This document shows, in pieces, positions 1,710 through 61,545 of a stretch of DNA of 64,000 nt. The stretch is from assembly GCA_026745465.1 (NCBI GenBank), contig JACYXH010000573.1, positions 32,501 through 96,500 of the forward strand. The letters run 5' to 3'. This DNA comes from Lota lota (lineage: Eukaryota > Chordata > Actinopteri > Gadiformes > Lotidae). Under the pieces are notes generated by a model. It was not told where the DNA came from and made no database searches. It saw only the letters and a list, made by a program, of their open reading frames with translations. The translations under genes were made by a program, and so were the position numbers. Position 1 is the first letter of the stretch, and every line of letters starts with the position of its first letter.

Positions 1710-1792
1710 ATGAATGAGGAGAGAGAGGAGGGGGGTCCTACCTCTAAAACCACTCTGTCTGGGGAACATGGCCACCAGAGCAAAGCTAAGAG
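1710..1792 (+). CDS. NLR gene 1 exon 1 (start codon exon)
   Basis: Encodes 27 residues beginning MNEEREEGG and ending ...SKAKR, then a GTAAGA donor. It matches the conserved N-terminus of many fish NLRC3-like proteins (…TLSGEH…). It ends in phase 2. A homologous copy at 32.68-32.76 kb has lost 2 bp. Confidence 0.8.
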
Positions 1793-11636: not shown

Positions 11637-14600
11637 GTTGTCTGGCTGCCTGGTCACACAGGAAGGCTGTGCTTCTCTGGCCTCAGCTCTGAGCTCCAAC
11701 CCCTCCCATCTGAGAGAGCTGGACCTGAGCTACAATCACCCAGGAGACTCAGGAGTTACGCTGCTCTCTGCTGGACTGGAGGATCCATGCTGGAGACTGG
11801 ACACTCTCAGGTATGGAGAGGACAGCTCACCACTCAGGGACAATGTCTCCTACAAGGATTCAACCAGCTGCTTGATGAAGTGGTTTGAAAACGCAGCTGG
11901 AACTCATGTTGTGTAGAAAGTGATGAGACAGCAGATGATGAAGGTGAATGTTTCAACATGCTGCTCTCACTTTGTTTCCCCCCCAGTGTGGAGCACGGTG
12001 GAGTGTGGAGGCTGGAACCAGGTGTAAAGAAGTGTAAGTGTTTAGTTAGATTCATCACAACACACACTAACTATTGAGATGGAAAGTCCATCCACACAGC
12101 AGGAGGTGACGTCCGTTCATTCAGATGTGTACTTGTGTATACGTGTATATAGCTATGTTTCCATGTGTTTATGTATGTGTAGTATGTTTGTATAGTATGT
12201 ATGTGTATGCATACTTTGTACGTGTACTTATAAATGTGTACGTATGTGTGTGTATATGTATATATATAGATATGTACACTATATTGCCAAAAGTATTGGG
12301 ACACCCCTCCGAATCATTGAATTCAGGTGTTCCAAACACTTCCATGGCCACAGGTGTATACAATCAAGCACCTAGGCATGCAGACTGCTTCTACAAACAT
12401 TTGTGAAAGAATGGGTCGCTCTGAGGAGCTCAGTGGATTCAAGCGTGGTACCGTGATAGGTTGCCACCTGTGCAATAAATCCATTCGTGAAATTTCCTCA
12501 CTACAAAATATTCCACGGTCAACTGTTAGTGTTATTATAACAAAGTGGAAGCAATTGGGAACAACAGAAACTCAGTCACCAAGTGGTAGGCCACGTAACA
12601 TCATAGAGCGGGGTTAACGCATGCTGAGGCGCACAGTGCGCAGAAGTCGACAGCTTTCTGCAGAGTCAATAGCTACAGACCTCCAAACTTTGTGTGGCCT
12701 TCAGATTAGCTCAATAACAGCAGTGTAGACGTGTTCTCTGGAATGACGAATAACGCTTCTCTGTCTGGCAATCCGATGGACGAGTCTGGGTTTGGTGGTG
12801 GCAGGAGAATGGTACTTGAATGCATTGTGCCATGGTAAAAGTTTGGTGGAGGGGGGATTATGATGTGGTTTTGTTTTTTAGGGGTTGGGCTTGGCCCCTT
12901 AGTTCCAGTTAAAGGAACTGTTAATGCTTCAGCATACCAAGACATTTTGGACAATTTCATGCTCCCAACTTTGTGGGAACTGTTTGGGGATGGCCACTTC
13001 CTGTTCCAACATGACTGCGCACCAGTGCACAAAGCAAGGTCCATAAAGACATGGATGAGCGAGTTTGGTGTGGAGGAACTTGACTGGCCAGCAGAGAGTC
13101 CTGACCTCATCCTGATAGAACCCCTTTGGGATGAATTAGAGTGGACACTGCGAGCCAGGCCTTCTCATCCAACATATGTGCCTGACCTCACAAATGCGCT
13201 TCAAGAAGAATGGTCTAAAATTCCCTTAAACACACTTCTAAACCTTGTGGGAAGCCTTCCCAGAAGAGTTGAAGCTCACATAGCTGCAAAGGGTGGGCAT
13301 ACTCCATATTAAATCCTACGGATTAAGAATGGGATGTCATTAACCTTCATGTGCTGTAAAGGCAGGCGTCCCAAAACCTTTGGCAATATAGTGTATAGTA
13401 TGTACGTGTATGTATGAGTACATGTCTATGTATATATAGTATGTACGTGTATGTATGAGTACATGTCTATGTATATATAGTATGTATGAGTACATGTCTA
13501 TGTATATATATAGTATGTATGTGTATGTATGAGTACATGTCTATGTATATATAGTATGTACGTGCATGTATGAGTACATGTCTATGTAAAGTATATATAG
13601 TGTGTACATGTATGTATGAGTACATGTGTATGTATATATAGTATGTACGTGTATGTATGAGTACATGTCTATGTATATATAGTATGTATGTGTATGTATG
13701 AGTACATGTCTGTGTATATATAGTATGTACCATAATGTATGAGTACATGTCTATGTATATATAGTATGTATGTGTATGTATGAGTACATGTCTATGTAGA
13801 TATAGTATGTATGAGTACATGTCTATGTATATATAGTATGTACGTGTATGTATGAGTACATGTCTATGTACATATAGTATGTATGAGTACATGTCTATGT
13901 ATATATAGTATGTATGTGTATGTATGAGTACATGTCTATATATATATATATAGTTTGTACGTGCATGTATGAGTACATGTCTATGTAAAGTATATATAGT
14001 GTGTACGTGTATGTATGAGTACATGTCTATGTATATATAGTATGTATGTGTATGTATGAGTACATGTCTATATATATATAGAAGGTATGTGTATGTATGA
14101 GTACATGTCTATGTATATATAGTATGAACATGTATGTATGAGTACATGTCTATGTATATATAGTATGATAACATGTCTATGTATATATAGTATGTACGTG
14201 TATGTATGAGTACATGTCTATGTATATATAGTATGATAACATGTCTATGTATATATGGTATATATGAGTACATGTCTATGTATATATAGTATGTACGTGT
14301 ATGTATGAGTACATGTCTATGTATATATAGTATGTACGTGTATGTATGAGTACATGTCTATGTATATAGAGTATGTATGAACCAGTTCTATGGCTCCAAC
14401 AGTTAATTTCCAGCCTGTATGTGAGCTCAGCTTGTTCAGTCTATTGTTCACGCAGGTGTCCCTTTGAAGGTTGAGTGCAATGTATGTGTATTGGGTAATC
14501 CAAGTTTAATATCTTGAAAGGTATTACAAGTATTGCTTAGATATTTCATATTAGTAATAAGCTCATCATGCTGAATATGTAGATGTATAATATGTGTATG

Positions 14601-32570: not shown

Positions 32571-32680
32571 GGAGGAGGATAGGAAGTCTTCATTGCAGTA
32601 ATTTCACGTTCAGTATTTAAAAATAATCCACAGAAACAATATGTAGTTGTGCTTGTGTCCAGGTCTCCAGTCTACTATGA

Positions 32681-32759
32681 ATGAGGAGAGAAATGAGGAG
32701 TCCTACCTCTAAAACCACTCTGTCTGGGGAACATGGCCGCCAGAGCAAAGCCAAGAGGT
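32681..32759 (+). pseudogene. Relic of gene-1-type NLR exon 1
   Basis: Homologous to 1710-1792 with the same GTAAGA donor. It is 2 bp shorter between start and [10 protein letters not shown], so the original ATG (32677) now runs into a stop. A second ATG 4 bp downstream (32681) reads MRREMRSP and rejoins the old frame. It lies 1.4 kb before the CARD gene start. Its phase 2 end does not match the phase 1 acceptor of the CARD exon, so it is probably a leftover. Confidence 0.7.
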
Positions 32760-32861
32760 AAGAAGTGGATCTCTCACTGTCTGTGACTGTTGTCCATCTC
32801 AGAGCTCAGCAGTGATATATCATGACTCCATCATTAGTCTGAGTAAGAGCTGTGTGTGTGT

Positions 32862-32905
32862 TGTGTTGAAGCCCAGAGCAGCAGGAGAGAGCAGACTCCC
32901 CTGGA
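32862..32905 (+). pseudogene. Fused remnant of the 39-aa exon
   Basis: The left half (gttgaagcccagagcag) matches intron sequence at 3962-3978 of gene 1. The right half (caggagagagcagactcccc) matches the 39-aa exon. The two are joined at a shared 'cagcaggagag', which implies a recombination that removed exons 2-3 and the 49-bp minisatellite from this copy. Confidence 0.65.
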
Positions 32906-34074: not shown

Positions 34075-34081
34075 ATGGAAG
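34075..34081 (+). CDS. NLR gene 2 exon 1 (start codon, 7 coding bases)
   Basis: ATGGAAG followed by a good GTAAGC donor. Too short to prove by itself. It is chosen because phase and spacing fit the CARD exon and because CARD proteins commonly begin within a few residues of the first helix. Confidence 0.55.
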
Positions 34082-37000
34082 GTAAGCTGTGTTTATCTTT
34101 ATGCGCAAGGGGCAAACATTTGACTTTTGAACATGCCTGGCCTACTGTATACTGTATACTGACACACATGTTTTTTTTTTCTTTATCTGAACTGGAAACA
34201 TTATTTAAACGAAATGATCAGGATCGTCGTAATTATAATTTTTTTATGTTGGTGCGACACATGTTTTTATATTTATCCCAGTAAAGAAGAGTTTAATAAC
34301 GCTGTCATTTTATATTGCCTTGTTTGGTTTGTCTTCCAGGGGAGCTTTTGAGGATCCATTCTGATTTTGTGCAGAGCGTTTCAATCCCAGTTCTCAAAGG
34401 TCTCCTGGATGACCTTTTGCATCATGAAGTGTTGAGTTTCGAGGAGAAGAACTTTGTGATGGAGAACCAGATGACCACAACGGACCGAGCACGTTGTCTG
34501 ATCGAGATGGTGATCCGGAAAGGGGACAGAGCAAGTCAGATGATGATTGGTAGTATGAAGGATAGGGACCCAGAATTATGCATCACCCTGGGTCTGATCT
34601 CTTCTCCTGCTGCTCATGTCGGTGAGTTGTAGCTATGAATGTTTTTTTTAAGACATTATCGCTGCCAACTTTGTTTTGTTTTGTCAAGACATTACATTTA
34701 TTTAGCAGACAACGTAATTGTTGAACACATGTTTAGAATAGGACTGTGCTAGTACATGTGTACTAAGCTGTTCTTCTCTGTAAAGTAATTATTGAACACA
34801 TGTTTAGAATAGGACCCCCTGCCTGTGCTAGTACATGTGTACTAAGCTGCTCCCCTCAGGATGGGAATAGGATCAAGGATATCTGTTAGGGGAGAGGAGC
34901 GAGTGGACCCAAATGCACGACACAGACACGCTGACACGGGGGTAAACAATACAAGGGCTTTACTGAGGAGAACCAAAGAGTAAGGCTGGAAACAGGAGGA
35001 CGAGGCAAGGGGCTTGATAGCAGGCGGGTAGTCAGGCAGGCGAGGGTTCGGCAACGGGCAGGTAGTCTGACAGGCTGAACAAAGGGAGAAGACAGTTTAG
35101 TGCAAGCGATTGACACTATGGCAATCTGAACAAGAGGAAGAGCCAGGGAAAAGGTACTGACTGTGAAGTGTAAACAACGATCTAGCGATGACTGCTTGGA
35201 GATCTGGGGTTGATATAGTGAGTGCTCATGAAAATTGCCGGCCGGTGTGTAGACAGAGGGAGATGAATGGATGACGTAGATGAAAGACAATGGCTAGATA
35301 GCAGAAGTGGACGGCGTGACAATATCAGATGGGTCTTCAAAAGTTTAAATATTTACAAGATCAACCAAATTGTTTACATATTTACACAATATGAACACCC
35401 TCATCCAGAGATCCAGAGAGAAAGAGTGAGAGACAAACAAACTATTTCAAAGAAGAATCGGAGAATATATTTTTCTGTGCTGTGTGTATGTATTCTATTT
35501 GCATGAGTGATGGCGCTTATCGTATAGTCACTATACGATAAGCGCCATTACTCTGGTCTAATGCAAATATAACGGTATATAGTGGTGCACTATACTTTAG
35601 TGCACCACTTTCTCCCGCTTTGAAAAATGCCAATCTAGAGAATGTTTCAGAGTGAGAGCGTCAACGTAAAAAGTCGATAAATCTAGTGAGAAGGTCGCTA
35701 AGCAACACTGAGGGGAACTGGACAAACTGATTGGTTCACAACATCATGCTTTCATTGTTACAGAGCTGGACGGTTTGGTGCTGCACACTTTTACAGCAGG
35801 AAGAAGAAGACTAAGATACTGCACTGATCCGTGATTTATCATTATTATGTAGCTATCAATTATATATCCTATATCATTAGGTTGATTGCTGTTTTTCTGT
35901 ATACACATTCGGTTCAAAACGTTATTAAAAAGGCTACGTTTTGTTAATGTTTAAACTGTAGCCTACTTAAAACCTCTCACTCTTATGTGAGAGCTGTTCT
36001 GAGAGCCGCTCTGAAAAGAGCTGCTCTGAGCGCTTATTATTATTATTGTTGAATGTTACAGTTACATCTTGTTACTAATTAAATGTAGGTCTTAGTTAAA
36101 TTGTATAATGTTTATTTGTACAGTGCTACTTTATATGTAGTAGAATGACATAGGAATTAATGCTGTGGTGTAACATTATGGATTAACTGGATGTTTGAAC
36201 ACTGCCTGCAGGACAAGCAACATCCAGAACCACATATATCACTCCAGCTACCTCCAGTGAAACACAGCCTGCAGGTCAAGCAACATCCAGCACTCCAACT
36301 ACCTCCAGTGAAACACAGCCTGCAGGTCAAGCAACATCCAGCACTCCAGCTACCTCCAGTGAAACACAGCCTGCAGGTCAAGCAACATCCAGCACTCCAG
36401 TTACCTCCAGTGAAACACAGCCTGCAGAAGGTAAGTTCTGTTAATTGTATTGTTACAGCTGCAGTTATGTAACTAATGTCAAAATAGCCTAATCCAGACA
36501 CATTTGGCTGTGTTGGGTCATGCCAAAACATTCATATTAATAAAAGATACTGTTGTTGACCAGCTGTCAATGTATTGCTAAGTTGAAACAAGGATTATAA
36601 TGTAAAGAAATCACCTAATTTTCCGATATAGCCAAACTTATATTGGTTTACTGTTCGCTTACAGCCTGCAATTAAAAAATGAAAACCATTTTGGGCTGAA
36701 AAGTGTAAAGATACCAGCAAGTCATGAGAAGTTACCTCAAAACCCCTTTTGTAGGTCTCTGTATCACGTGTCGCACACTTTTACAGCAGGAAGAAGAGGA
36801 CTAAGATACTGCACTGATCTGTGATATATCATAATTATGTAGCTATAAATGATACATCATCATATATCATTATGTTGATTGCTATTTTTTTATATACACG
36901 TTCAGTTAAAAATGATATTAAATAGGCTACGTTTTGTAAATGTTTAAACTGTAGCCTACTTGAAACCTCTCACTCTTATGTTAGTTAATTGTTAATTTAC

Positions 37001-40000
37001 AGAGTTAATTCGTTTGGCGATGTGTCGCTTGTCGTGCACCTCTGAGGTTTTGAAGCACCACACTGAGAGTGTGCAAACTGGGTGTCCATATCATGGATGT
37101 GGGGGATTTCCCACCAAACACGTTTACTACCCCTCCTCAAAGAGGCACAGAGAGGCACACATTCCATCACCTCCTCCTCAAACGCCTTCGCCTTCAAAGC
37201 TGCCATGCCGGAGATCTCCCTGAGTGTGTGTGGTGATGGCTGGTTCAACAGGTGTGCAGCCTCACCCAGCACCAGAGTCCAATCAGTCTGACTCGGGCCA
37301 GGTGAGGCTGCTTCAACCAGCCATCGACCACACACACTTCAAAAGTCTGATCCAGATATGTAGGGTAACTGTTGGGCTGTCAGGTTAAATGGTTTGATCC
37401 AGATATGTAGGGTTAATGTGGGTCTATCATCTTAAACAATGTTAAACAATATACTGCAGATGAACAGCAGAATAACTCAGTGGAGGAGATGTAAAACTAT
37501 CGTGTTATGTCAGCAGAACAAGTCACTTTTCACTGATACTCATCAATGATTCCACTACTTAGCAAGTTATAACATATCTTAAGTAGAATTTAATACTGCT
37601 ATCATGAAACAATCATATTGTTGTGGAAGTATCAAAATAATCCTGAATTATCGTATCCATAACATGCAGTCCCAACCAGCTTCTCCGACCACAAGTAATG
37701 AAGCCACTAAATATCATGAAGTTGATCGATAACTTCTGTTGTCTTCTCAATTAGGATCTGCTGCTGTCGAGTGCCAACATAAAATCAAGTCCCATCTGAA
37801 GGAGAAGTTCAGGTGTGTGTTTGAGGGAATCGCTAAAGCAGGACAGCGAACAGATCTGAATGACTTATACACAGAGCTCTTCATCACAGAGAGAGGCAGT
37901 GGAGAGGTCAACAAGGAACATGAGGTCAGACTGATTGAAACAGCTTCCAAGAAACCAGCCAAGGAGGAAACACCAATCAGATGTGAAGACATCTTTAAAC
38001 CCTTACCTGGACAAGATCAACCAATCAGAACAATGATGACAACTGGAGTGGCCGGCATTGGAAAAACCATCTTAACACACAAGTTCACTCTGGACTGGGC
38101 TGAAGGCAAAGCCAACCACGACATACACTTCACATTTCTCTTCACCTTCAGAGAGCTGAATTTACTGAAAGGGAAAGAGTTTAGCTTGGTGGAACTTCTT
38201 CATCACTTCTTTATTGAGACCAAAAAAGCAGGAATCTGCAGTTACGACCAGTTCAAAGTTGTCTTCATCCTGGATGGTCTGGATGAGTGTCGACTTCCTC
38301 TGGACTTCCAGAACAACCAGATCTGGACTGATGTCACAGAGCCAACCTCGGTGGACGTGCTGCTGACAAACCTCATCAGGGGCTACCTGCTTCCCTCTGC
38401 CCGCATCTGGATAACCACACGCCCTGCGGCAGCCAATCAGATCCCTGCTGAGTGTGTTGACATGGTGACAGAAGTGAGAGGGTTCACCGACCCACAGAAG
38501 GAGGAGTACTTCAGGAAGAAATTCAAAAAGGAGACGGAGGCCAACACAATCATCTCCCACATCAAGACATCACGAAGCCTCCACATCATGTGTCACATCC
38601 CAGTCTTCTGTTGGATCACTGCTACAGTTCTTGAGGAGTTCTTCAAAACATCCCGAAGTGGAGAAGAGATACCCAAGACTGTGACTCAGATGTACATCCA
38701 CTTCCTGAGGGTTCAGTCCATACAGGGGAACAGGAAGTATCGTGGGAGAGCTGTAACAGATCAACACTGGAGTTCAGAGAGCAGAAAGATCATTGTTTCT
38801 CTGGGAAAACTGGCTTTTAACCAGCTGGAGAAAGGCAACCTGATCTTCTACGAGGAAGACCTGGCAGAGTGTGGCATCAATATCAGAGCAGCCTTAGAGT
38901 ACACAGGAGTGTTCACCCAGATCTTTAAAGAGGAGTGTGGGCTGTACCAGGACAAGGTGTTCTGCTTTGTCCATCTGAGCATCCAGGAGTTTCTGGCTGC
39001 CCTTTATGTCTTTCTGTCCTTCATCGACACTGGGGTTAATCTGCTCTCAGGACAACCAAAATCCCTGTGGTGGTTTCTTGTTAGAAAGATTCAAAAAAAG
39101 AAAAGAAAGGTCAAACTCTACCAGAGTGCTGTGGACAAGGCCTTACAGAGTGAGAACGGACACCTGGACTTGTTCCTCCGCTTCCTCCTGGGCCTCTCTC
39201 TGGAGACCAATCAGAAACTCCTACGAGGACTGCTGAAACAGACAGGGAGCTCATGGACCAATGAGGAAACAGTGTCTTACATCAAGGAGAGGTTAAGTGG
39301 AGATCTCTCTACAGAGAGAAGCATCAATCTGTTCCACTGTCTGAATGAGCTGAATGACCGTTCTCTAGTGGAGGAGATCCAACAGTACCTAACATCAGGA
39401 AGACTCTCCAGAGAATCTCTCTCTCCTGCTCAGTGGTCAGCTCTGGTGTTTATCTTACTGTCATCAGAAGAGGAGCTGGACGTGTTTGACCTGAAGAAAT
39501 ACTCTGCTTCAGAGGAGGGTCTTCTGAGGCTGCTGCCAGTGGTCAAAGCCTCCAAAACATCTCTGTAGGTTCACTAATAACAAGTATTACAATACACACA
39601 ATACAATATGCATAATAATAGAATATAAAAGTTATAATAATATACAAAAGCGCACGAGGATAGTCCACAGCAGGGGGTCAGGTAGCGCGCGGTTCCCCTG
39701 ACGAAGATCATCCCGGGATTCCAGTTTCTTCATCCGTCGTCTCCTCTCCCTATAACGGTACCGGGACTTTGTTTTGCTCACGTTAAGAGCGAACAGTCTA
39801 CCGTGTTGTGACACCGAGCCGTACAGGCCTGCAACGTTTATGGCGGCATATCACTGACAAAAACAACTAACACATCTGTGCACACAAATCATTATTGTAA
39901 ACACTAACTGCACTCGCGCTCAGTAGTTCTCTGATCGCGAGAGCAATAATAAATAAAGCCTGAGGAAGAAACTGACGCCCCGTGCTCGTTTCTCCTCAAA

Positions 40001-43000
40001 AGACAATATATATTATATTGGAATATAACTTCTAATAATATTCAAAACACCTCTGTAGACGTACTGATACATCCATATATTACAATGCAATACACAATTT
40101 ACACAATACTGCAATAAAAAGTAATTAACACACAAAACTTACATTTTACACCCAATATTGAATAAACACAATGATCTAATGTATTGATTAGAATATATTA
40201 GTTAAATTAATAAAACATTTCTAAAAAATTATTTCAACACAATTCCTTCATTATGTTAAAAGTAAAAGAGGTAAGTTCTTTAAACACATTAACATGTTCC
40301 TGTTTGTTTTGTGTGAAGGCTGAATGACTGTCATCTGTCAGAGAGATGCTGTGAAGCTCTGGCCTCAGTTCTCAGCTCCAACTCCTCTAGTCTGAGAGAG
40401 CTGGACCTGAGTACCAATGATGTGCAGGATTCAGGAGTGAAGCTGCTCTCTGCTGGACTGGGGAGTCCACACTGTATACTGGAAACTCTCAGGTCAGTTT
40501 GACTCAATGTGCAAACAGTTACACCACAATGTTCATATCAGAGGACATTTAACATATTTACATCCAGAAAGTTAATAGGCATGAATATATTATTTCTATA
40601 GGAATAACTCAACATATTTATATTTGTGTTGCCATGACAGTATAGGTATACATTATATTCTTTGTTTGTTTCTGATGGTATAAGGTGTCTGTTGTATTAT
40701 ATTCTTATTGTGATTATCATGTAGTCAGACAGTAAGGTGGGGTTTAGAGTTGTTTAGCAAAGTAGAATAACTGCCTATTCATAAAACCGTCGTTTTAAGT
40801 GAAGTATAATGATAGCTTTGTTTAATAATTTCACATATATGTGGCATTTATATCTTAATATTTAAAGATCCAGGTTATTAATGTTAATATTATTTTTATG
40901 TAGGTAATAATACTTTGGTTACAATTTTCATAAAACATTTAATCACAGTTCCTAACATGTTGTGTTTATTGTGTGTGAAGGCTGAATGGCTGTCATCTGT
41001 CAGAGAGATGCTGTGAAGCTCTGGCCTCAGTTCTCAGCTCCAACTCCTCTAGTCTGAGAGAGCTGGACCTGAGTACCAATGATGTGCAGGATTCAGGAGT
41101 GAAGCTGCTCTCTGCTGGACTGGGGAGTCCACACTGTACACTGGAAACTCTCAGGTCAGTTTGAGTCAATGTGCAAACAGTTACACCACAATGTTCATAT
41201 CAGAGGACATTTAACATATTTACATCCAGAAAGTTAATAGGCATGAATATATATATATCATTTTCATAAGAATAACTCAACATATTTATATTTGTGTTGC
41301 CATGACAGTATAGGTATACATTATATTCTTTGTTTGTTTCTGATGGTATAAGGTGTCTGTTGTATTATATTCTTATTGTGATTATCATGTAGTCAGACAG
41401 TAAGGTGGGGTTTAGAGTTGTTTAGCAAAGTAGAATAACTGCCTATTCATAAAACCGTCGTTTTAAGTGAAGTATAATGATAGCTTTGTTTAATAATTTC
41501 ACATATATGTGGCATTTATATCTTAATATTTAAAGATCCAGGTTATTAATGTTAATATTATTTTTATGTAGGTAATAATACTTTGGTTACAATTTTCATA
41601 AAACCTTTAATCACAGTTCCTAACATGTTGTGTTTATTGTGTGTGAAGGCTGAATGGCTGTCATCTGTCAGAGAGATGCTGTGAAGCTCTGGCCTCAGTT
41701 CTCAGCTCCAACTCCTCTAGTCTGAGAGAGCTGGACCTGAGTACCAATGATGTGCAGGATTCAGGAGTGAAGCTGCTCTCTGCTGGACTGGGGAGTCCAC
41801 ACTGTACACTGGAAACTCTCAGGTCAGTTTTACTCAATGTGCAAACAGTTACACCACAAGGTTCATATCAGAGGACATTTAACAGATTTACATCCAGAAA
41901 GTTAATAGGCATGAATATATTATTTTCATAAGATTGCCATGACAGTATAGGTATACATTCTATTCTTACAGTTTGTTTGTGAAGGTTTCATGTGTATGTT
42001 GTTTTACATTCTTATTGTGATTATCATGTAGTCAGACAGTAAGGTGGGGTTTAGAGTTGTTTAGCGAAGTTGAATAACTGCCTATTCATAAAACTGTCGT
42101 TTTAAGTGACGTATAATGATAACTTTGTTTAATAATTTCACATATATGTTGCATTTATATCTTAATATTTAAAGATCCAGGTTATTAATATTATTTCATT
42201 TTTTTCATGTAGGTAATAATACTTTGGTTACAATCCTCATAAAACATTGAATCACAGTTCCTAACATGTTGTGTTTATTTTGTGTGAAGGCTGAATGGCT
42301 GTCATCTGTCAGAGAGATGCTGTGAAGCTCTGGCCTCAGTTCTCAGCTCCAACTCCTCTAGTCTGAGAGAGCTGGACCTGAGTACCAATGATGTGCAGGA
42401 TTCAGGAGTGAAGCTGCTCTCTGCTGGACTGGGGAGTCCACACTGTACACTGGAAACTCTCAGGTCAGTTTTACTCAATGTGCAAACAGTTACACCACAA
42501 TGTTCATATCAGAAGACATTTAAGAGATTTACATACATAAAAGTTATTAGGCATGAGTATATTTTTCTAAGAATAACTCAACATATTTATATTTGTGTTG
42601 CCATGACAGTATAGGTATACATTATATTTTTACAGTTTGTTAATGATGGTATAAGGTGTATGTTGTATTACATTCTTATTGTGATTATCATGGAGTCAGA
42701 CAGTAAGGTGGGGTTTAGAGTTGATAAGCAAAGTTGAATAACTGCCTTTTTATAAAACTGTATTTTTAAGTGAAGTTTGATCACTTTTGTTTAATAATTT
42801 AACATCTATGTGACATCTATCTCTTAATATTTAAAGTTCCAGGTTATTAATATTTCAATTTCTTCATGTAAAAATACTTTGGTTACAATTCTCAGAACAC
42901 CTTTAAACCCAGTTCCTAACATGTTGTGTTTATTTTGTGTGAAGGCTGAATGGCTGTCATCTGTCAGAGAGATGCTGTGAAGCTCTGGCCTCAGTTCTCA

Positions 43001-45026
43001 GCTCCAACTCCTCTAGTCTGAGAGAGCTGGACCTGAGTACCAATGATGTGCAGGATTCAGGAGTGAAGCTGCTCTCTGCTGGACTGGGGAGTCCACACTG
43101 TAAACTGGAAACTCTCAGGTCAGTTATCAGCCTCTTCTTCAAACTGTGTCTTTGGGCTTGTTAAATATGTAAGGGATGATCCACGACTAGGTGGGCTGTT
43201 ATGGAAAAGGTCCTGTCCTGTTAACTGTTAGTATGTTATGGATGTTATATGTTATGTAACTCTGGCCAGCTGATGTGAGGGTTAGGGGTTGCTGTCCTGT
43301 TAACTGCTAGTATGTTATGTATGTTATATGTTATGTAACTCTGGCCAGCTGATGTGAGGGTTAGGGTTAAGGGTTGCTGTCCTGTTAACTGCTAGTATGT
43401 TATGTATGTTATATGTTATGTAACTCTGGCCAGCTGCTGTGAGGGTTAGGGGTTGCTGTCCTGTTAACTGCTAGTATGTTATGTATGTTATATGTTATGT
43501 AACTCTGGCCAGCTGATGTGAGGGGTAGGGTTAGGGGTTGATGTCCTGTTAACTGCTAGTATGTTATGTATGTTATATGTTATCTAACTCTGGCCAGCTG
43601 ATGTGAGGGTTAGGGGTTGCTGTCCTGTTAACTGCTAGTATGTTATGTATGTTATGTTATGTAACTCTGGCCAGCTGATGTGAGGGTTAGGGGTTGCTGT
43701 CCTTTTAACTGCTAGTATGTTATGTATGTTATATGTTATGTAACTCTGGCCAGCTGATGTGAGGGTTAGGGGTTGCTGTCCTGTTAACTGCTAGTATGTT
43801 ATGTATGTTATATGTTATGTAACTCTGGCCAGTTGATGTGAGGGTTAGGGTTAGGGGTTGATGTCCTGTTAACTGCTAGTATGTTATGTATGTTATATGT
43901 TATGTAACTCTGGCCAGCTGATGTGAGGGTTAGGGTTAGGGGTTGCTGTCCTGTTAACTGCTAGTATGTTATGTATGTTATATGTATGTTATATGTTATG
44001 TAACTCTGGCCAGCTGATGTGAGGGCTAGGGGTTGCTGTCCTGTTAACTGCTAGTATGTTATGTATGTTATATGTTATGTAACTCTGGCCAGCTGATGTG
44101 AGGGTTAGGGGTTGATGTCTTGTTAACTGCTAGTATGTTATGTATGTTATATGTTATGTAACTCTGGCCAGCTGATGTGAGGGTTAGGGGTTGCTGTCCT
44201 GTTAACTGCTAGTATGTTATGTATGTTATATGTTATGTAACTCTGGCCAGCTGATGTGAGGGGTTAGGGTTAGGGGTTGTTGTCCTGTTAACTGCTAGTA
44301 TGTTATGTGTGTTATATGTTATGTAACTCTGGCCAGCTGATGTGAGGGTTAGGGTTAGGGGTTGCTGTCCTGTTAACTGCTAGTATGTTATGTATGTTAT
44401 ATGTTATGTAACTCTGGCCAGCTGATGTGAGGGTTAGGGTTAGGGGTTGCTGTCCTGTTAACTGCTAATATGTTATGTATGTTATATGTTATGTAACTCT
44501 GGCCAGCTGATGTGAGCTGAGGAGTTGTCATTAGTGTAGACATGGTGATGAGGCTGTAGACGTGCTGTGATCTGAATATAATGCACACCTCACCACTAGA
44601 ACATCACTGGCCGTGGTATAGTGATTCATATGGAACATTAAAGATGTCCTTTACATCACATTAGTTTGGTGTAAGTGCTGCTCATGTCCAATGCATTTCT
44701 GTTGCTCTTTTCCCTGCTGACAAAACACTCCCTGGTTCTACAAAATGTTAGAACTTGTGAAGAAACGGTCTTAGCGTACCAAACACATCGGACTTCTCCT
44801 GACTCTAACCGAACAATATCTAAGTTGAGTTGTAGCGATTGAGAAAGGAGCATTTGTTTAAGATCCTGTTTCACATCCAAGTGAAGGAAGTTCTGCTGTC
44901 TGTGATGATGTCATCTCCCCTCCTCCTCTTCCTGTTCTCAGACAGGGTGACACAGCTTTATCTCCATAAAGTATCAATAAAGCTTTTAGTGGTCCTCCAT
45001 ATGGAATTAATACACTTTATTAATGA

Positions 45027-45108
<82 letters not shown>

Positions 45109-47241
45109 TGTGTGTGTGTGCAGGTTGTCTGGCTGCCTGGTCACACAGGAAGGCTGTGCTTCTCTGGCCTCAGCTCTGAGCTCCAACCCCTCCCATCTGA
45201 GAGAGCTGGACCTGAGCTACAATCACCCAGGAGACTCAGGAGTTACGCTGCTCTCTGCTGGACTGGAGGATCCACGCTGGAGACTGGACACTCTCAGGTA
45301 TGGAGAGGACAGCTCACCACTCAGGGACAGTGTCTCCTACAAGGATTCAACCAGCTGCTAGATGAAGTGGTTTGAAAACACAGCTGGAACTCATGGTGTG
45401 TAGAAAGTGATGAGACAGCAGATGATGAAGGTGAATGTTTCAACATGCTGCTCTCACTTTGTTTCCCCCCCAGGGTGGAGCACGGTGGAGTGTGGAGGCT
45501 GAAACCAGGTGTAAAGAAGTGTAAGTGTTTAGTTAGATTCATCACAACACACACTAACTATTGAGATTGAAAGTCCATCCACACAGCAGGAGGTGACGTC
45601 CGTTCATTCAGATGTGTACTTGTGTATACGTATGTGTAGCTATGTTTCAGTGTGTTTCTGTGTGTCTAGTATGTTTGTGGATGTATGTATGTGTACTTAT
45701 GTGTATGTATGTGCGTGTATGTATGAGTACATGTCTATGTATTTATATATAGTATGAGTACATGTCTGTGTATATATAGTATGTATGAGTACATGTCTAT
45801 GTATATATAGTATGTATGAGTACATGTCTATGTATATATAGTATGTATGTGTATGTATGAATACATGTCTATGTATATATAGTATGCACGTGTATGTATG
45901 AGTACATGTCTATGTATATATAGTATGTAGGTGTACGTATGAGTACATGTCTTTGTATATATAGTATGTATGAGTATATGTCTATGTATATATAGTATGT
46001 ACGTGTATGTATGAGTATATGTCTATGTATATATAGTATGTACGTGTATGTATGAGTACATGTCTATGTATATATAGTATGTACGTGTATGTATGAGTAC
46101 ATGTCTATGTATATATAGTATGTATGAACCAGTTCTATGGCTCCAACAGTTAATTTCCAGCCTGTATGTGAGCTCAGCTTGTTCAGTCTGTTGTTCACAC
46201 AGGTGTCCCTTTGAAGGTTGAGTGCAATGTATGTGGATTGGGAAAACCAAAAGTTTCATATCTTGAAAGGTATTACAAGTATTGCTTAGTTATTTTGTAT
46301 GGGTGATTAGCTCATCATGCTGAACATGTTGATGTATAATATGTGTATGTAGTGTAAATATTGAGGGAGTAAATGCAGTTTATACATTTTCCTTGGTTTC
46401 AATGTTTTGATTGGGACAGCCACTCACACACACATGGGATTAGCTATTAAGTTTAACTTTAATTATCTTAAAAACAATATGCACTATAAACTCTAAAGCT
46501 AAAGCACACTAGCAAACTATAGCACCTATCATACAATTTGATTTTGTCTTTCTATGTTACTGTTTGAAGTGTAGATAGTGATTAAAAAGTGTCATAAAGA
46601 GAATAAAAGAAGTATGCAAGAGAACTAGTGATGATGATGATGATGAAGAATGGTTCAGCAGCTAATCATGTCTTGTTCTCCCATCAGATGCCTGTGAACT
46701 CACACTGGACCCAAACACAGCCCACAGAGAACTCTCTCTGTCTGAGGACAACAGAAAGGTGACGTGGGTTAGAGAGGAGCAGTCGTATCCTGATCACCCA
46801 GAGAGATTTGTCTCCTATCCCCAGGTGTTGTGTAGAGAGGGTCTGACTGGCCGCTGTTACTGGGAAGTAGAGTGGGAAGGACTTGTTGAGATAGGAGTGA
46901 CATACAGAGGAATCACAAGGAGAGAATGGGGTGATGACAGCTGGCTTGGAGTGAACAACAAGTCCTGGAGTCTTTTTTGTTATGATGGTGGTTACATTGC
47001 CCGGTACAACGGTAGTGGAACAGTCATACGTCTCCCCCCTCCTGGCTCTAACAGAGTAGGAGTGTATCTGGACCGGCCTGCTGGCACTCTGTCCTTCTAC
47101 AGAGTGTCCCCAGATGTAGGAGGGTCCTCAGACACACTGACACACATCCACACCTTCCAGTCCACCTTCACCCAGGAGGACCTCCACCCTGCTTTTGTGT
47201 TAAGGGGGGTTGGTGCCTCGGTGTCTCTGTGTCGGTTGTAG
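34075..47241 (+). CDS. NLR gene 2: CARD-linker-FISNA-NACHT-LRR-B30.2 protein
   Basis: Predicted cytosolic CARD-containing NOD-like receptor. The joined exons are 34075-34081, 34340-34621, 36212-36430, 37755-39564, 40319-40492, 40981-41154, 41649-41822, 42290-42463, 42945-43118, 45124-45297, 45474-45520 and 46688-47241. They total 3963 nt, exactly 1321 codons, with all phases matching. The start is the ATG in actATGGAAG|gtaagc: it supplies the single phase-1 base that the CARD acceptor needs and gives [13 protein letters not shown]. Domains: CARD (about 3-96), Thr/Ser-rich fourfold linker (97-169), FISNA-NACHT (170-773, Walker A at about 267-274), twelve LRR units in six exons (773-1120) and PRY-SPRY (1137-1320). 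The CARD would allow coupling to CARD adaptors or caspases. Compared with gene 1, the N-terminus has been replaced and the LRR array is longer. The first exon is the least certain part. Confidence 0.82.
34340..34621 (+). CDS. NLR gene 2 CARD exon
   Basis: A 282-bp exon, phase 1-1. It encodes [20 protein letters not shown], then [20 protein letters not shown], then [19 protein letters not shown] and ends with ...[10 protein letters not shown]. Hydrophobic spacing and the six-helix pattern ([35 protein letters not shown]) fit the CARD family, closest in style to ASC and inflammatory-caspase CARDs. The symmetric phase makes it a movable cassette. Confidence 0.88.
34870..35335. repeat. Interspersed repeat, class uncertain
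   Basis: The sequence 'ggacccaaatgcacgacaca', with 'caatacaagggctttactga' and 'ggcaggtagtctgacaggct', is of a type scattered widely in fish genomes. It may be a fragment of an LTR-type fossil or another element. No ends are visible and it is not coding. It lies in the intron after the CARD exon. Confidence 0.4.
35497..35568. repeat. 39-bp near-perfect palindrome flanked by inverted octamer motifs
   Basis: Arms 35510-35528 and 35530-35548 are perfect reverse complements around one base. Outside them lie ATTTGCAT (35497-35504) and ATGCAAAT (35561-35568), themselves inverted and matching the octamer (POU/OCT) site. Confidence 0.9.
35581..35609. repeat. Hairpin, 12-bp arms, 5-base loop
   Basis: Perfect arms agtggtgcacta / tagtgcaccact, 12 bp after the right octamer of the preceding palindrome. 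Together the two structures look like one palindromic (MITE- or foldback-like) insert. Confidence 0.88.
35705..35990 (+). promoter_or_regulatory. NLR 5' noncoding exon, copy 4, inside gene 2 intron
   Basis: Matches the 5' exon block from 'aggggaactggacaaactga' to 'ggaagaagaagactaag|ata'. The donor dinucleotide is lost: GTACTG in copies 1 and 2 reads ATACTG here. It lies between the CARD and linker exons. Its downstream intron sequence recurs at 36770-36985. Confidence 0.55.
36212..36430 (+). CDS. NLR gene 2 linker exon (17-aa repeats)
   Basis: A 219-bp, phase 1-1 exon encoding about four copies of a 17-residue unit, [17 protein letters not shown], the first copy being diverged (SRTTYITPA). 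It is rich in Thr, Ser and Pro, so probably a flexible linker between CARD and FISNA. The 51-bp unit repeats at DNA level and could vary in number between individuals. Confidence 0.75.
36770..36985 (+). repeat. Second copy of the 5'-exon/intron segment in gene 2
   Basis: Repeats 35785-35985 ('gcacacttttacagcaggaa' to 'aaactgtagcctact'), a local duplication flanking the linker exon. Confidence 0.75.
36997..37335 (-). other. Unrecognised minus-strand open frame (112 codons)
   Basis: The frame contains ...[18 protein letters not shown]... and ...[18 protein letters not shown].... The composition is protein-like, but I do not recognise it and see no splice context. A decayed mobile-element fragment in the intron before the NACHT exon is the simplest reading. 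Confidence 0.25.
37755..39564 (+). CDS. NLR gene 2 FISNA-NACHT exon
   Basis: An 1810-bp exon, phase 1 to 2, open throughout. It starts [19 protein letters not shown], has Walker A GVAGIGKT, Walker B ILDGLDEC and ends ...VKASKTSL with the same GTAGGT donor as gene 1. It is 15 bp shorter than gene 1, mainly through indels after GVNLLS (a Lys/Arg-rich insert [10 protein letters not shown] in place of the gene 1 serine-rich segment). Confidence 0.92.
39648..40010. repeat. CpG-rich cassette, copy C (left-truncated)
   Basis: Begins abruptly with 'gcgcacgaggatagtcc' and keeps only the right half of cassettes A and B. The minus-strand frame (to 39814) starts [11 protein letters not shown] and matches the others for about 55 residues, then runs into intron. 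Confidence 0.75.
40319..40492 (+). CDS. NLR gene 2 LRR exon 1
   Basis: A 174-bp, phase 2-2 exon. It differs from the common LRR exon at two codons (NDCHL for [13 protein letters not shown] for HCTLETLR). Confidence 0.92.
40981..41154 (+). CDS. NLR gene 2 LRR exon 2
   Basis: A 174-bp, phase 2-2 exon with the common sequence. The flanking introns are nearly identical to those of LRR exon 3, so exon and intron were duplicated together (period about 665 bp). Confidence 0.93.
41649..41822 (+). CDS. NLR gene 2 LRR exon 3
   Basis: A 174-bp, phase 2-2 exon, identical to the common sequence as read. Confidence 0.93.
42290..42463 (+). CDS. NLR gene 2 LRR exon 4
   Basis: A 174-bp, phase 2-2 exon with the common sequence. 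Its flanking introns are more diverged than those of exons 2-3. Confidence 0.93.
42945..43118 (+). CDS. NLR gene 2 LRR exon 5
   Basis: A 174-bp, phase 2-2 exon with one codon change (HCKLETLR). The following intron matches the one after LRR exon 2 of gene 1, so these two are positional equivalents. Confidence 0.93.
43205..44515. repeat. 79-85-bp minisatellite (gttaggg core), about 16 copies
   Basis: Same unit as 10614-11190, with length variants from one or two gttaggg blocks and one internal 'tatgttata' duplication near 43977. It is roughly twice the length of the gene 1 array. Confidence 0.95.
45029..45120. repeat. (TG)n tract abutting a splice acceptor
   Basis: About 45 TG units with one interruption, running into the cag acceptor of LRR exon 6. 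Longer than the matching tract in gene 1. Confidence 0.95.
45124..45297 (+). CDS. NLR gene 2 LRR exon 6 (terminal LRR)
   Basis: A 174-bp, phase 2-2 exon encoding the terminal LRR type ([18 protein letters not shown]). It has [11 protein letters not shown] where gene 1 has [11 protein letters not shown]. Confidence 0.92.
45474..45520 (+). CDS. NLR gene 2 short connector exon
   Basis: A 47-bp exon, phase 2 to 1, encoding [16 protein letters not shown]. It matches gene 1 except for Arg for Ser at the first codon and Lys for Glu. Confidence 0.85.
45690..46130. repeat. About 41-bp (TATG/TA-rich) minisatellite
   Basis: Same unit as 13396-14375 but shorter and without the Tc1 insertion, so it is the empty-site counterpart. 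Confidence 0.93.
46688..47241 (+). CDS. NLR gene 2 last exon (PRY-SPRY/B30.2)
   Basis: A 554-bp exon with [23 protein letters not shown] and [40 protein letters not shown], then the stop at 47239-47241. The framework is as in gene 1. Differences fall in loops: FVSYPQ for FDFHHQ, REWGDDS for [19 protein letters not shown] for [19 protein letters not shown] for GLGVDGD. Confidence 0.93.
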
Positions 47242-57795: not shown

Positions 57796-58670
57796 GTTCT
57801 TACAACGCATTGACGAGTCTCACAGAAAGTGTGAGACACAAAGTGTGAGGCATTCGCGTCCGGGGCTCAGACACTAAAATGAGCAATGCCACGGTCCGGT
57901 CTCCAGTATACTTACTACCTAATAGTCTATTCAAATAATGTTTGCAAATATCCATTGCTCTTCACATGCCCCTGTTCAAGCCGGTGCAAAGTGATCCGTA
58001 GAGACAGACGTCAGGGCAAGGTACGTAGCAGTGGGGCCATAATCATTTTAAAGTAAGTTACACATCTGATATCTGAACATGTAAACCAAAACTGACGTTT
58101 GAAAAAGAAATGGTTTAAACATAATTGGACAATTTAAATTCTAAATTCTAAAATGGTACTTATGAACAATTTATAATGAATAATGGAGGAAGAAATACCA
58201 CCATGTATTTCTCTCCCATTTTATATATTTGCATATCAAATTGCAGAGGAAGGTACAGAGGCAGACAGAGAAGGACAAGGCCATAGCTAGTAATTAAAAC
58301 AGCTCATCGACATTCCAACAAATCCCAACAAATCCCAACAAATCAAAGGGAAGTCTGTTTATTACATTATCAGCATGATAATAGTGCCAGCAGTGGCAAA
58401 CCACCACCCTACACAATGTGTTTTAGTGCTACCAATAAAGGGATACGACCTGACGATACCATGTGTATAAGTACAAGCATTTCTAGGAGCCTAGGTTTTT
58501 CAAAGACTTTCAAAGTGAGCTACTCACACTTTGGCTTTCTAAATTACGTTTGATAAATTGATTATTTTAGATGGTTAAAGTTAACCATCATCATTAAATT
58601 ATCTTAATACGACGAGACCTATTTTATATATTTTGTACATCTGTAAGAATATTCTATTCTATAATAAACA
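57790..58670 (-). repeat. Inverted copy of the 59-64 kb repeat unit, between two promoter copies
   Basis: Matches, in reverse complement, landmarks of the direct units: the CRE-like block near 58005, 'gcagaggaaggtacagaggc' near 58242 and 'ggatacgacctgacgatacc' near 58441. Confidence 0.85.
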
Positions 58671-58925
58671 ACATTCTATTAAAAGTGAGAACAAATAGAT
58701 AATTTGAGATGGAGCCATAAGTAATACACAAATTACATTAATCTTAGGAGTCCAAAAATGAGGAGTCTACCATTACAAAGCAATACAATTAAATCCTAAA
58801 ATAGTTAGTCTCTCTGACTTGAAGATGGTACTCACCGGCAGAGTCTGTAGGTCCTTCTGTATGAATGAGGCGTCTGAATCTAGGACCAGCACCATATAAA
58901 CGTGGATTTGCTTACTTTCATGCAA
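58671..58925 (-). promoter_or_regulatory. Lectin promoter and noncoding exon, distal copy
   Basis: Closely matches 57540-57795, including the intact gtgagt donor (58835). It has a better TATA-like site (tttatatgg on the minus strand, near 58897). It could serve as an alternative first exon, or belong to another lectin copy beyond this window. Confidence 0.55.
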
Positions 58926-59754
58926 AGGCTCTTGTATGCAAATACTCAAGCACTCACTGTGAGAGTGACTATGGGGTTATCGGCAGGAAAGGAAAGGTGA
59001 AAGACATGAGCTGAATTTAACAAAAACATGGCTCTCTTTATTACAACAAACTTGTTTTAGTTTGTGGTACAGGGGAAAACCGGTAAGCAAGGCTAGATGA
59101 GTGTTTAGTTAATTTAATGTAGAAATGTTACATATTATACCTTTAACCATGTCTAACCTAATGCCTATACTTAACCATCTAACCAGCTAAAATAAGTAAT
59201 TTATCAACCTTAATTTAGAAAGCCGACTTGATAGTCTTTAAAGGTAAAAATACACAAAGACCTAGGGTCCATGAAATGCTTGTATTTATACACATGGCAT
59301 CATCAGGTCGTATCCCTTTAATGGTACCACTAAAACACATTGTCTAGGGTCATGGTTTGCCACTGCTGGCACTATTATCATGCTGATAATATAATAAACA
59401 GACTTCCCTTTGATTTGTTGAGATTTCAATGAGTTGTTTTAATTACTAGCTATGGCCTTGTCTTTCTCTGTCTGCCTCTGTACCTTCCTCTGCAATTTGA
59501 TATGCAAAGATATTCAATGGGAGAGAAATACATGGTTGTATTTCGTCCTCCATGTATTCATTATAAATTGGTAATAAGTATACATTTTTAATTAAGTCCA
59601 ATTTAATGTAGTTCTAATTAAAACATTTATTTTTCAAACTTCAGTTTTGACTAACATGTTCAGGCTAATTACACTTGTCTTCATGAGTAAAAGAGATATC
59701 AGATGTGTATCTTAACTTTAAAATGATTATGGCCCCACTGCTACGTACCTTGCC

Positions 59755-59765
59755 CTGACGTCAGT
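59755..59765. promoter_or_regulatory. CRE-like palindrome in repeat unit
   Basis: TGACGTCA in the block 'ccttgccctgacgtcagtct'. The same perfect site is at about 62212. The middle unit (60915) and the inverted unit (58005) carry near matches. Confidence 0.45.
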
Positions 59766-61487
59766 CTCTACAGATCACTTTGCATCGGCTCACACTGGCT
59801 CTAGGTATGAAGTACAACCAAATGACAGGATAAAGTATGCAGATAAAATGGAAACATCACTAGCAGCTGCACCCATTAAACAGGGACATTGGAAGGACGT
59901 TGGCTATTTGCAAACATTATTTGTTTAGGCCTTCATTGACTACCGGGCCGGGACATTGCTAGTTTTACTGTGACCTCACCGGACGCTGCCAATGCAGACA
60001 GCCATCGCAAGCTGCAAATGACTTTGTGTGAGACATTTCAACGCGTTGTATGAAGGATCATGGGAAATCTCTCTGTGTGGTATATTGTTGTGTGATGAAG
60101 GGAAAACGGACACACAAGTGTCTACACTTTATTTTTTTGTTTTACCTTTAAATTGAGTTTCACATGGACAGAGTAAACCACTTGTTATGTCTGACGCTTC
60201 ACAATTGTTATGTTTTAATGTAGAAATTTTACATATTATACCGTTACGTTAAAGAAATACAAAATAATGTAAAGTGTCTATTCATTTTCAGATTCATGTG
60301 TTTCTCTTTGTGTATTTTGGAGCCGGGAGCGGTCTACAATCTAAATGGTGTCATAAAGAGACAGGCACTGTCAACCAGAGGAGATATTCTCATAGATCTA
60401 CAAAGTATGTTACATAGGTCTAGTCGTTTTTACATAATTGAATGTTGAAATGTTAGATATTATACCTTTAACCTTGTCTAACCCAATACCTACACTTAAC
60501 CATTTAACCAGCTAAAATAAGTAGTTTATCAAACTTAATTTAGAAAGCCAACTTGATAGTCTTAAAGGCAAAAGCTCAATTAATTGTTTTAATTACTACT
60601 GTGGGCTGTCTTTCTCTGTCTGCCTCTGTACCTTCCTCTGCAATTTGATATGCAAATATATTCAATGGGAAAGATATACATGGTTCTATTTATTCCTCAA
60701 TGTATTCGTGATAAATCGGTAATAAGTATAAGTTTAGATATTATAATAAGAATTGTCCAATTACATATAGTTCTAAGTAAAACCTTTATTTTTCAAACTT
60801 TATTTTTGGTTAACATGTTTAGGCTAGTTACACTTGTCCTCATGAGTAAAAGAGATATCAGATGTGTATCTTACTTTAAAATGATTATGGCCCCACTGCT
60901 ACGTACCTTGCCCTGACGTCTGTCTCTACATATCACTTTGCATCGGCTCACACTGGCTCTAGGGAGGAAGAACAACCAAATGACAGGATAAAGTATGCAG
61001 ATAGATCAAATGGAAACATCACTAGCAGCTGCACCCATTGAACATGGACATTGGAAGGACGTTGGCTATTTGCAAACATTATTTGTATAGGCCTTGTGAG
61101 ACAAATCAACGCTTTGCCTGAAGGATCATGGGAAATCTCTCTGTGTGGTATATTGTTGTGTGATGAAGGGAAACAGACACACAAGTGTCTGTACCCTGTT
61201 TTCTTGTTGTTCCTTTAAATTGAGTTTCCCATGAACAGAGCGAACCCATTGTCTGACGCCTCGCTTTGTTTGTGTTTTAATGCAGAAATGTTACATATTA
61301 TACCTGTAAGTGAAACATTTTCAAAAGAATACAAAATGTCTATTCATTTTCAGATTCATGTATTTCTCTTTGTGTATTTGGGAGCCGGGAGCGGTCTACA
61401 ATCTAAATGGTGTCATGAAGAGACAGGCACAGCCAACGAGAGGAGATATTCTCACAGAAGTACAAAATATGTTACATAGTGTGGGAG

Positions 61488-61545
61488 TGTGTGTGGAGGA
61501 TGGCTGCTTTAAGCAGCCATCCTCCACACTTCCACACATAGGTCT
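61488..61545. repeat. Foldback insert with 19-bp perfect arms
   Basis: The arms on either side of a single central T near 61511 are perfect reverse complements over 19 bp. A looser outer pairing (gtgtgg / ccacac) follows. It interrupts a 'ttacataggtctagtc' sequence that is uninterrupted in the neighbouring unit. Confidence 0.9.

Follow-up and report, generated by a model that had tools for sequence, protein, structure and literature searches.

The window analysed here, a 64,000-nucleotide stretch of the Lota lota genome, holds two NLR genes with different heads: gene 1 has a repeat-type N-terminus and gene 2 a CARD. How did the CARD come to stand before a NACHT exon? The original prediction saw an effector-domain swap between tandem NLR genes, caught in the act.

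Architecture of the two genes

Gene 2 runs in the order CARD, linker, FISNA/NACHT, LRR and B30.2 (Table 1), and the predicted exon edges and phases (1-1 for the CARD and linker exons, a phase 1 acceptor for the NACHT exon) all hold. A stop-free frame of 1320 aa can be spliced from the start, CARD, linker and NACHT exons, six LRR exons, a short exon and the B30.2 exon, the LRR exons being assigned from this splice model rather than from a Pfam scan. Within the NACHT exon, Pfam recognizes FISNA (4e-33), NACHT (7.4e-33), NOD2_WH and NLRC4_HD2. Gene 2 thus shows the marks of a fish NLR-C (NLR-B30.2) gene, with FISNA and NACHT in one large exon and LRR exons followed by PRY-SPRY, and those of a CARD-headed NLR, its CARD being encoded 5' of the NACHT on frame-compatible exons. 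Conserved splice sites and the open frame suggest that the CARD is joined to the NACHT by splicing. The top PDB chain for the CARD is ICEBERG (7.2e-10), with caspase-1 second. In PMC6988351, NLR-C group 5 is described by a Walker A motif GVAG(V/I)GKT and an exon end (L/M)PV(V/I)KASxK(A/V); gene 2 has GVAGIGKT and an exon end that is near the second motif but inexact.

Table 1. Features of genes 1 and 2, in window coordinates
Feature	Position	Strand	Remarks
5' element of gene 1 (N-type), with flank and putative first coding exon (ATGGCC..)	1665-1903	+	95% to 32632-32868
Gene 1 N-terminal repeat, two copies	1932-2081, 2574-2723	+	tblastn with repeat peptide
Gene 1 standard N-exon (AEENAHAFL..)	4359-4589	+	150 matches, from 150 scored of 341 candidates
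Gene 1 FISNA-NACHT exon	5079-6903	+	Possibly mosaic: N-like start, CARD-gene-like middle
Gene 2 remnant of N-type 5' end	32632-32868	+	95% to gene 1 1665-1903
Putative old first exon in remnant	32733-32757	+	25 nt long, with a presumed phase 1 end
Gene 2 two-codon start exon, ATGGAAG/gtaag	34075-34081	+	Phase 1 donor; present in 28/30 fetched CARD loci
Gene 2 CARD exon	34340-34621	+	Phase 1-1; Pfam CARD 1.1e-13
Gene 2 Thr/Ser/Pro-rich linker exon	36212-36430	+	Phase 1-1; 17-aa repeats; 3.7 copies of 51-bp unit (TRF)
Gene 2 CARD-type intron before NACHT	37334-37727	+	Differs from N-type intron (17-row tree)
Module edge	37728-37755	+	CARD/N high identity stops 21-27 bp before NACHT exon
Gene 2 FISNA-NACHT-WH-HD2 exon	37755-39564	+	Phase 1 acceptor; Walker A GVAGIGKT
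Gene 2 LRR exons 1-3	40319-40492, 40981-41154, 41649-41822	+	Frame-compatible splice model
Gene 2 LRR exons 4-6	42290-42463, 42945-43118, 45124-45297	+	Frame-compatible splice model
Gene 2 short exon, last LRR to B30.2	45474-45520	+	One of five frame-compatible choices; picked for gtaagt donor
Gene 2 B30.2 (PRY-SPRY) exon and stop	46688-47241	+	Pfam PRY 5.2e-23, SPRY 7.6e-11; splice model

Self-comparison bore out the claim that the two genes have NACHT (92.6%), LRR, B30.2 and downstream flank in common. This likeness, together with the N-type remnant upstream of the CARD, is what speaks for a recent local swap, in which a CARD cassette was put into a tandem copy of gene 1. However, gene 1 does not behave as the tandem partner. 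Its NACHT exon has closer relatives among other CARD genes than gene 2: its best match is a CARD gene on contig C526 (96% protein), and it falls in a set (100/99) with C526 and C674, both CARD, and C669:110499, an N gene (C numbers label contigs of this genome, followed where needed by the position; L numbers label loci). Gene 1 is not among the matches to the gene 2 NACHT (73 of 485 candidates scored), the best of which, C57:1009854 (98%) and C562:58938 (96% protein), both carry a CARD upstream. The 5' element of gene 1 is 96-99% identical to that of three N genes (two on C669, one on C589) and 94-95% identical to the element upstream of the CARD at C57, C562 and C526. No Pfam family scored above the cut-off for its N-exon.

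Distribution of the CARD module and its insertion junction

The CARD state is common to multiple loci within this genome. Of 62 candidates from a genome-wide search with the CARD exon, 61 were matches, and identity was ≥76% for 30 of these. The splice sites of the CARD exon are kept in all 30 fetched CARD loci and the start exon ATGGAAG in 28 (L009-L036, gene 2 being L010; absent in L037 and L038). The linker module also occurs at further CARD loci and at C398 and C22, and is deleted at C57. Of the 209 NACHT exons located, 19 are preceded by a CARD at a distance of up to 12 kb, and none of these 19 has a listed N-exon within 6 kb upstream (150 of 341 candidates scored); a further 114 of the 209 are without a type because N-exon scoring covered those 150 candidates. 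Gene 2 belongs to a CARD-headed class of fish NLR-C genes that has many copies. Possibly C57:1009854 is an allele of gene 2 rather than a paralogue, the flank searched to tell the two apart being a genome-wide repeat, and there may be alternative haplotypes among the contigs.

The remains of an old N-terminus that had been predicted around gene 2 are present: the remnant is followed, beyond 32868, by a truncated repeat exon, and copies of the 5' element lie at 28.3 kb and 29.8 kb, both 88% identical, and at 35.7 kb, 71% identical. They are not peculiar to this locus, however, as the remnant recurs at C57, C562 and C526 and the 35.7-kb element at C562, C526 and C636. The switch into inserted sequence, ..CCTGGAC/taagttgtcc, is identical in gene 2, C57, C562 and C526, that is, in 4 of 4 CARD loci whose upstream sequence was fetched far enough. 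The same junction at four loci therefore points to a single entry of the CARD module into a repeat-type NLR, before these loci split. The module would have consisted of the two-codon start exon, the CARD exon and the linker exon, all joined in phase 1; its insertion would have broken the repeat exon and left the old first exon upstream. The prediction was thus right that a CARD module took the place of a repeat-type N-terminus in a fish NLR, as the phase 1 boundaries permit, but it is not borne out that gene 2 was caught in the act: the junction is common to four loci, gene 2 groups with other CARD genes, CARDs occur at many loci and, among the candidates scored, gene 1 is not the nearest backbone. 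We consider a recent local swap highly improbable, and in gene 2 it is ruled out by the shared junction.

Among 24 distinct CARD exons, dN/dS was 1.40 (NG86), and it was 0.57 for the NACHT exon. Parsimony counted 32 synonymous and 140 non-synonymous changes in the CARD, a ratio 1.55x the intron-based expectation (p = 0.013), and the 24 exons contain no stops, with ~10 expected at the intron rate. We do not claim positive selection, because synonymous changes fall short of the number expected from the intron (32 vs 79) and recombination breaks the tree used.

Probable re-pairing of heads and NACHT exons

A NACHT tree of 39 typed rows (18 CARD, 21 N; 10 untyped rows of the larger, 49-row tree were dropped for the test) shows seven changes of type, at least five of them forced by starred branches. 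The CARD-linked NACHTs as one clade are rejected on this tree (dlnL 264.6, AU p 2.3e-5). Type is not free on it: shuffled labels averaged 13.4 changes, and because only 1 of 500 shuffles reached seven, either re-pairing is limited or near-copies carry weight. Gene 2 lies in an all-CARD set of four (99/98, 49-row tree; the starred sets of the 39-row tree number two and three), and the NACHTs of its clade lie among N-type NACHTs, in a 23-row set of 11 N, 8 untyped and 4 CARD (96/91). The predicted swap is correct in a wider sense, the clade of gene 2 joining a CARD module to such a NACHT, although gene 2 itself is not the event.

The intron before the NACHT exon tells another history. In a 17-row tree with 13 rows counted, one branch splits 6 CARD from 7 N introns (99/98), with a single change of type. 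The intron of C516:303776 groups with the CARD types (99/97), and the 3.5 kb upstream of that locus contain no CARD, linker, repeat or N-exon. Across 18 CARD genes, the CARD-module and NACHT trees reject each other (AU 6e-54 and 3e-6), neighbouring segments thus giving conflicting trees, as expected of gene conversion between paralogues.

High identity stops at -21 to -27 bp from the NACHT exon in 9 of 9 CARD/N pairs, and at this edge in 0 of 3 CARD/CARD and 0 of 3 N/N pairs. Counted from the NACHT exon start, C636:42335 (CARD) and C669:148157 (N) have 8 differences in 59 nt, 4 in the next 2262 and 16 in the next 909, and the near-identical tract includes ~520 bp of the 3' intron. In this one pair, the tract is clearly bounded on its 5' side, and its 3' side was viewed in a 2-kb flank. 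As assembled, the recent exchange is that of this pair, away from gene 2. Fusion of CARD-type and N-type genes by misassembly at near-identical NACHT exons appears improbable; such repeats trouble assemblers, as a haddock and cod study states (PMC5894186), but the conflict runs across many contigs, at exon divergences from <1% to several percent. Nor do we give any real credence to the absence of exchange, with CARD and N as two old families whose NACHT exons stay alike through selection on exons and not introns. The NACHT dN/dS and the greater divergence of introns than exons between types agree with it, but the NACHT tree and the C636/C669 tract, which reaches into an intron, rule out exon conservation alone.

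What is observed is two intron lineages, an edge, a tree conflict and one near-identical tract. Very probably, a repeat-type NLR received the CARD module in a single earlier event, and 5' modules and NACHT exons have been re-paired since. CARD-type and N-type 5' modules would have remained distinct lineages, and NACHT exons with downstream parts would have been exchanged between them; the switch would lie at the 5' border of the NACHT exon or slightly within it, a place of little resemblance between the two intron types.

As the main process we lean towards gene conversion. Unequal crossover at the NACHT border, which moves whole 5' modules instead, would leave the same 5' edge, and high identity does reach ~+3.1 to +3.2 kb in both C636/C669a and gene 1/C526. 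Against this, the difference rate in C636/C669a steps up at ~+2320 and matching stops at +3234, a pattern closer to tracts than to a single crossover in the 2 kb of 3' flank viewed. Gene 1 may also switch within its NACHT exon, at ~+450, in a scan that excluded the N sister L059 and in which N-likeness over the first 450 bp was weak (2 of 3 windows, one tie). Crossover is a credible but less probable account.

Signalling heads and known systems

The N-terminal domain of an NLR sets which output the receptor drives, the LRR or B30.2 senses and the NACHT oligomerises. The CARD would seed a filament in which a caspase-1-like or CARD-Death protein is its partner, and one sensor half could thus be tied to different outputs. 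In an inflammasome-forming NLR the CARD would recruit caspase-1 or an adaptor; the kinship of this CARD to ICEBERG and caspase-1 is one of sequence. With near-identical sensor halves under two heads, a mapped exchange edge and one or more very young pairs, these genes make the gain of new outputs by NLR families directly testable. They also show that the signalling head would be assigned wrongly if NLR subfamilies were named by their NACHT domain only.

The genome also contains a cluster of genes with related CARDs, with a Death domain at the one locus examined. A search for MHC class II beta found no match, as did the controls of the same search. Speculatively, and we think it rather doubtful, this could be a germline combinatorial receptor system: a few heads (CARD, repeat/N-exon) would keep being combined anew with a large stock of sensor halves, always across the same recombination edge, in a fish without an MHC class II beta match, and the NLR CARDs would diversify along with the related-CARD cluster, whose genes may be their private signalling partners.

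N-terminus shuffling (zebrafish) and CARD-bearing NLR-C genes (other fish) were already known; the CARD insertion scar and the mapped exchange edge are new here. The open-licence literature searched gave no description of CARD/repeat head exchange in a codfish, and the parts of the review PMC12436146 consulted held nothing further on head exchange.

The repeat-rich genomes of haddock and Atlantic cod carry FISNA and NACHT copies by the hundred (PMC5894186), an NLR expansion like that in Lota lota; that study counts NACHT and FISNA domains ("N-terminal" occurs 0 times in its text), whereas we treat the N-termini. CARDs occur on NLR-C proteins of the round goby (1 N-terminal, 12 C-terminal; PMC6988351) and in 4 of 12 NLR-C genes of the Siberian sturgeon (PMC10253273), a likeness taken from their descriptions; Lota lota differs in having the same start exon at 28 loci, a single scar at four examined loci and several re-paired NACHT clades. 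Zebrafish pyrin-headed NLR-C genes, like the CARD genes here, encode the effector domain in a separate exon ahead of FISNA-NACHT (PMC11192531, PMC2268669), but there group 1 has 97 of the 101 PYD exons, whereas CARD modules stand on several NACHT clades. A further parallel is zebrafish NLR-B30.2/NLR-C (Howe et al. 2016, PMC4852459), with FISNA and NACHT in one large exon, the remaining domains on single exons and gene conversion inferred for NACHT and B30.2. N-terminal repeat types there pair with different NACHT groups, read as extensive exon shuffling; groups 1 and 2a have death-fold domains, and the text never uses the word CARD. Exon layout and the re-pairing of heads with NACHT groups are thus alike in the two fish; the heads exchanged in zebrafish are repeat types, whereas Lota lota has a CARD as the other head and a mapped edge of exchange.

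Gene 2 and the CARD-headed class

The CARD-headed NLR of the window, gene 2, is readable from start exon through B30.2 as a complete NLR of 1320 aa with zero stops, and this frame-compatible splice model agrees with the exon edges and phases of the original prediction. The short exon could be placed and bounded in five frame-compatible ways, of which we chose the one with a gtaagt donor. Pfam identified CARD, FISNA, NACHT, winged helix, HD2, PRY and SPRY domains in gene 2, and ICEBERG and caspase-1 were the top matches by sequence among solved CARDs.

Exons of gene 2 (window positions)
Feature	Position	Basis
Start exon	34075-34081	Splice model
CARD exon	34340-34621	Splice model; Pfam CARD, 1.1e-13
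Linker exon	36212-36430	Splice model
FISNA-NACHT exon	37755-39564	Splice model; Pfam
Six LRR exons, short exon, then B30.2	End at 47241	Splice model

A genome-wide search of the source assembly (575 Mb, 867 contigs) with the CARD exon gave 61 matches from 62 candidates, all of which were scored; identity was at least 76% in 30 of these matches. In our CARD locus set, the best 30 of these 61 matches, CARD splice sites were intact throughout, and 28 loci had a two-codon start exon (ATGGAAG/gtaag); the two without it both lie within a cluster on contigs C411 and C597. The 28 start-exon loci hold 24 distinct CARD sequences. Across the gene 2 CARD exon and its copies (24 distinct), dN/dS was 1.40, with amino-acid exceeding synonymous change, yet there were zero stops. 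A linker exon lies ~1.2-1.5 kb upstream of the CARD exon at L021, L022, L024, L026, L030, L031, L033, L034 and L035, and contig C762 has a second one 3' of the CARD exon as well. Two further loci, L093 (C398:142500-146500) and L094 (C22:198500-202200), carry the 17-aa Thr/Ser/Pro linker exon and the same flanking intron stretches without a CARD match; on C398, open frames of 17-aa linker repeats reach at least 493 aa.

NACHT exons were scored as CARD-linked if a same-strand CARD lay at most 12 kb upstream and no further listed NACHT separated the two, which applied to 19 of 209 distinct exons with coordinates. None of these 19 had a listed N-exon, the standard exon of N-type (repeat-headed) genes, within 6 kb upstream, versus 76 of the 190 others. 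Because the scoring behind this listing covered 150 of the 341 N-exon candidates, 114 of the 209 NACHT exons were left untyped. Nine of 28 CARD loci had no NACHT among the listed exons.

Origin of the CARD module

Gene 2 had been proposed to be a swap event in itself, a reading that its relatives contradict: its best NACHT matches among the candidates scored, C57:1009854 (98%) and C562:58938 (96%), are likewise CARD-headed. It fell within an all-CARD set of four in a 49-row NACHT tree (support 99/98), and the supported sets containing it in a 39-row tree, of two and three rows, were also all CARD. The predicted N-type remnant (32632-32868) is indeed present but is not specific to gene 2, as the same sequence precedes the CARD in C57, C562 and C526. 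Likewise, the 35.7-kb element exists but is not local, the matching intron of C562, C526 and C636 (3/3 compared) having the same.

At all four CARD loci for which enough upstream sequence was fetched (gene 2, C57, C562 and C526), the repeat exon gave way to new sequence at an identical junction; C526 belongs to another NACHT clade than gene 2. As this junction is common to the four, the sequences indicate that a repeat-type NLR was interrupted by the CARD module before these copies separated. Upstream of the gene 2 CARD, a putative N-type first exon (32733-32757) has a predicted phase 1 end, with which splicing onto the CARD exon would be possible in principle.

A near-copy of gene 2, L009 (C57:1006498-1009779; CARD 100%, NACHT 98%), lacks the linker exon, which was removed by a deletion that begins in intron 2 and ends in intron 3; because that exon is phase 1-1, the frame would survive its loss. 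L009 may be either an allele or a paralogue of gene 2.

Re-pairing of heads and sensor halves

We typed NACHT exons by upstream content, which assigned 39 of 49 (18 CARD, 21 N), and omitted the 10 untyped exons from the test. The resulting tree required 7 head changes, at least 5 of them forced by supported branches. Head labels were still clustered on it (7 changes versus a shuffled mean of 13.4, with 1 of 500 shuffles as low), suggesting that exchange between heads and NACHT halves has been repeated but not free. For the 18 CARD genes, the CARD-module tree, in which one row (L036) had a long branch, and the NACHT-exon tree were mutually exclusive (AU 6e-54 and 3e-6). A single CARD clade of NACHT exons was rejected on the 39 rows (dlnL 264.6, AU p = 2.3e-5).

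The intron before NACHT (-420 to -26) behaved differently from the exon: in its 17-row tree (partial C57 intron omitted), one branch parted 6 CARD from 7 N rows (99/98), with C127, C512, C212 and C516:303776 uncounted. The first three have an N-exon, and their introns fell outside the CARD set; the C516:303776 intron grouped with CARD rows (99/97), and no CARD, linker, repeat or N-exon was found in the 3.5 kb upstream of it.

To map the edge of exchange, we compared six genes, all against all. High identity stopped 21-27 bp upstream of the NACHT exon in 9/9 CARD/N pairs, with blocks of ~80% or less beyond, and continued past the exon's 5' side for at least 400 bp in CARD/CARD pairs (3/3) and at least 97 bp in N/N pairs (3/3). 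A tenth CARD/N pair, C589/C636, had the same edge. The most informative pair, C636:42335 (CARD) and C669:148157 (N), were ~78% alike between -400 and -100, and differed at 8 positions in NACHT exon bases 1-59, at 4 in the next 2262 bases (~520 of these intronic) and then at 16 in 909 bases, and matching was absent from the final 560 bases of the 2-kb 3' flank. By sequence, the recent exchange appears to be this pair rather than gene 2.

The gene 2 NACHT exon was scanned in 12 windows with its own clade omitted: the best N row was ahead in 8, the best CARD row was ahead in 1, and the two were level in 3; this mostly N-like profile fits a CARD head joined to an N-like sensor half (NACHT and downstream). 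That of gene 1, the N-type NLR, grouped with C526 and C674 (both CARD) and C669:110499 (N; 100/99). When scanned in 150-bp windows with C669:110499 omitted, its top match was C674 or C526 in 4/4 windows from +450 to +1050 (99.3-100%). Of the 3 windows before +450, the best N row led in 2, by at most 2 points, and tied in 1; of the 4 after +1050, CARD rows led in 2 and tied in 2. The exon may be a mosaic, the sign being weak, and exchange may have run in either direction. Between the gene 1 LRRs and B30.2, 12321-13312 holds open frames that we take to resemble a broken transposase. Self-comparison of the window also revealed, at 57979-64000, direct and inverted repeats that are densely nested and share 76-100% identity.

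Candidate partners and comparison with other fish NLRs

In known NLRs, output is set by the N-terminal domain; one headed by CARD would be expected to bring in a partner that also carries a CARD. Candidate partners lie in the C411/C597 cluster, where the nearer CARDs are 68-76% identical to that of gene 2 and the locus read, L037, has a CARD and then a Death-domain exon. The cluster (L037, L038, L095) also contains a tandem row of four CARD exons, more distant in sequence, inside 2.4 kb; the matches on C411 and C597 mirror each other, which suggests that a single region is present twice. A search of the 575-Mb assembly for MHC class II beta (PF00969), run without a positive control, gave no match, which would fit a codfish-like lineage.

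For zebrafish, passages of Howe et al. (2016; PMC4852459) describe N-terminal repeat types shuffled across NACHT groups and gene conversion, and passages on goby (PMC6988351) and sturgeon (PMC10253273) describe CARD on NLR-C type proteins. As head shuffling itself and such CARD-bearing proteins are already known, what is new in this genome is limited to the CARD head, the common insertion scar and the mapped exchange edge. Burbot NLRs resemble those of zebrafish, as portrayed in these passages, in the shuffling of heads, but differ in having CARD as a head and a mapped edge of exchange.
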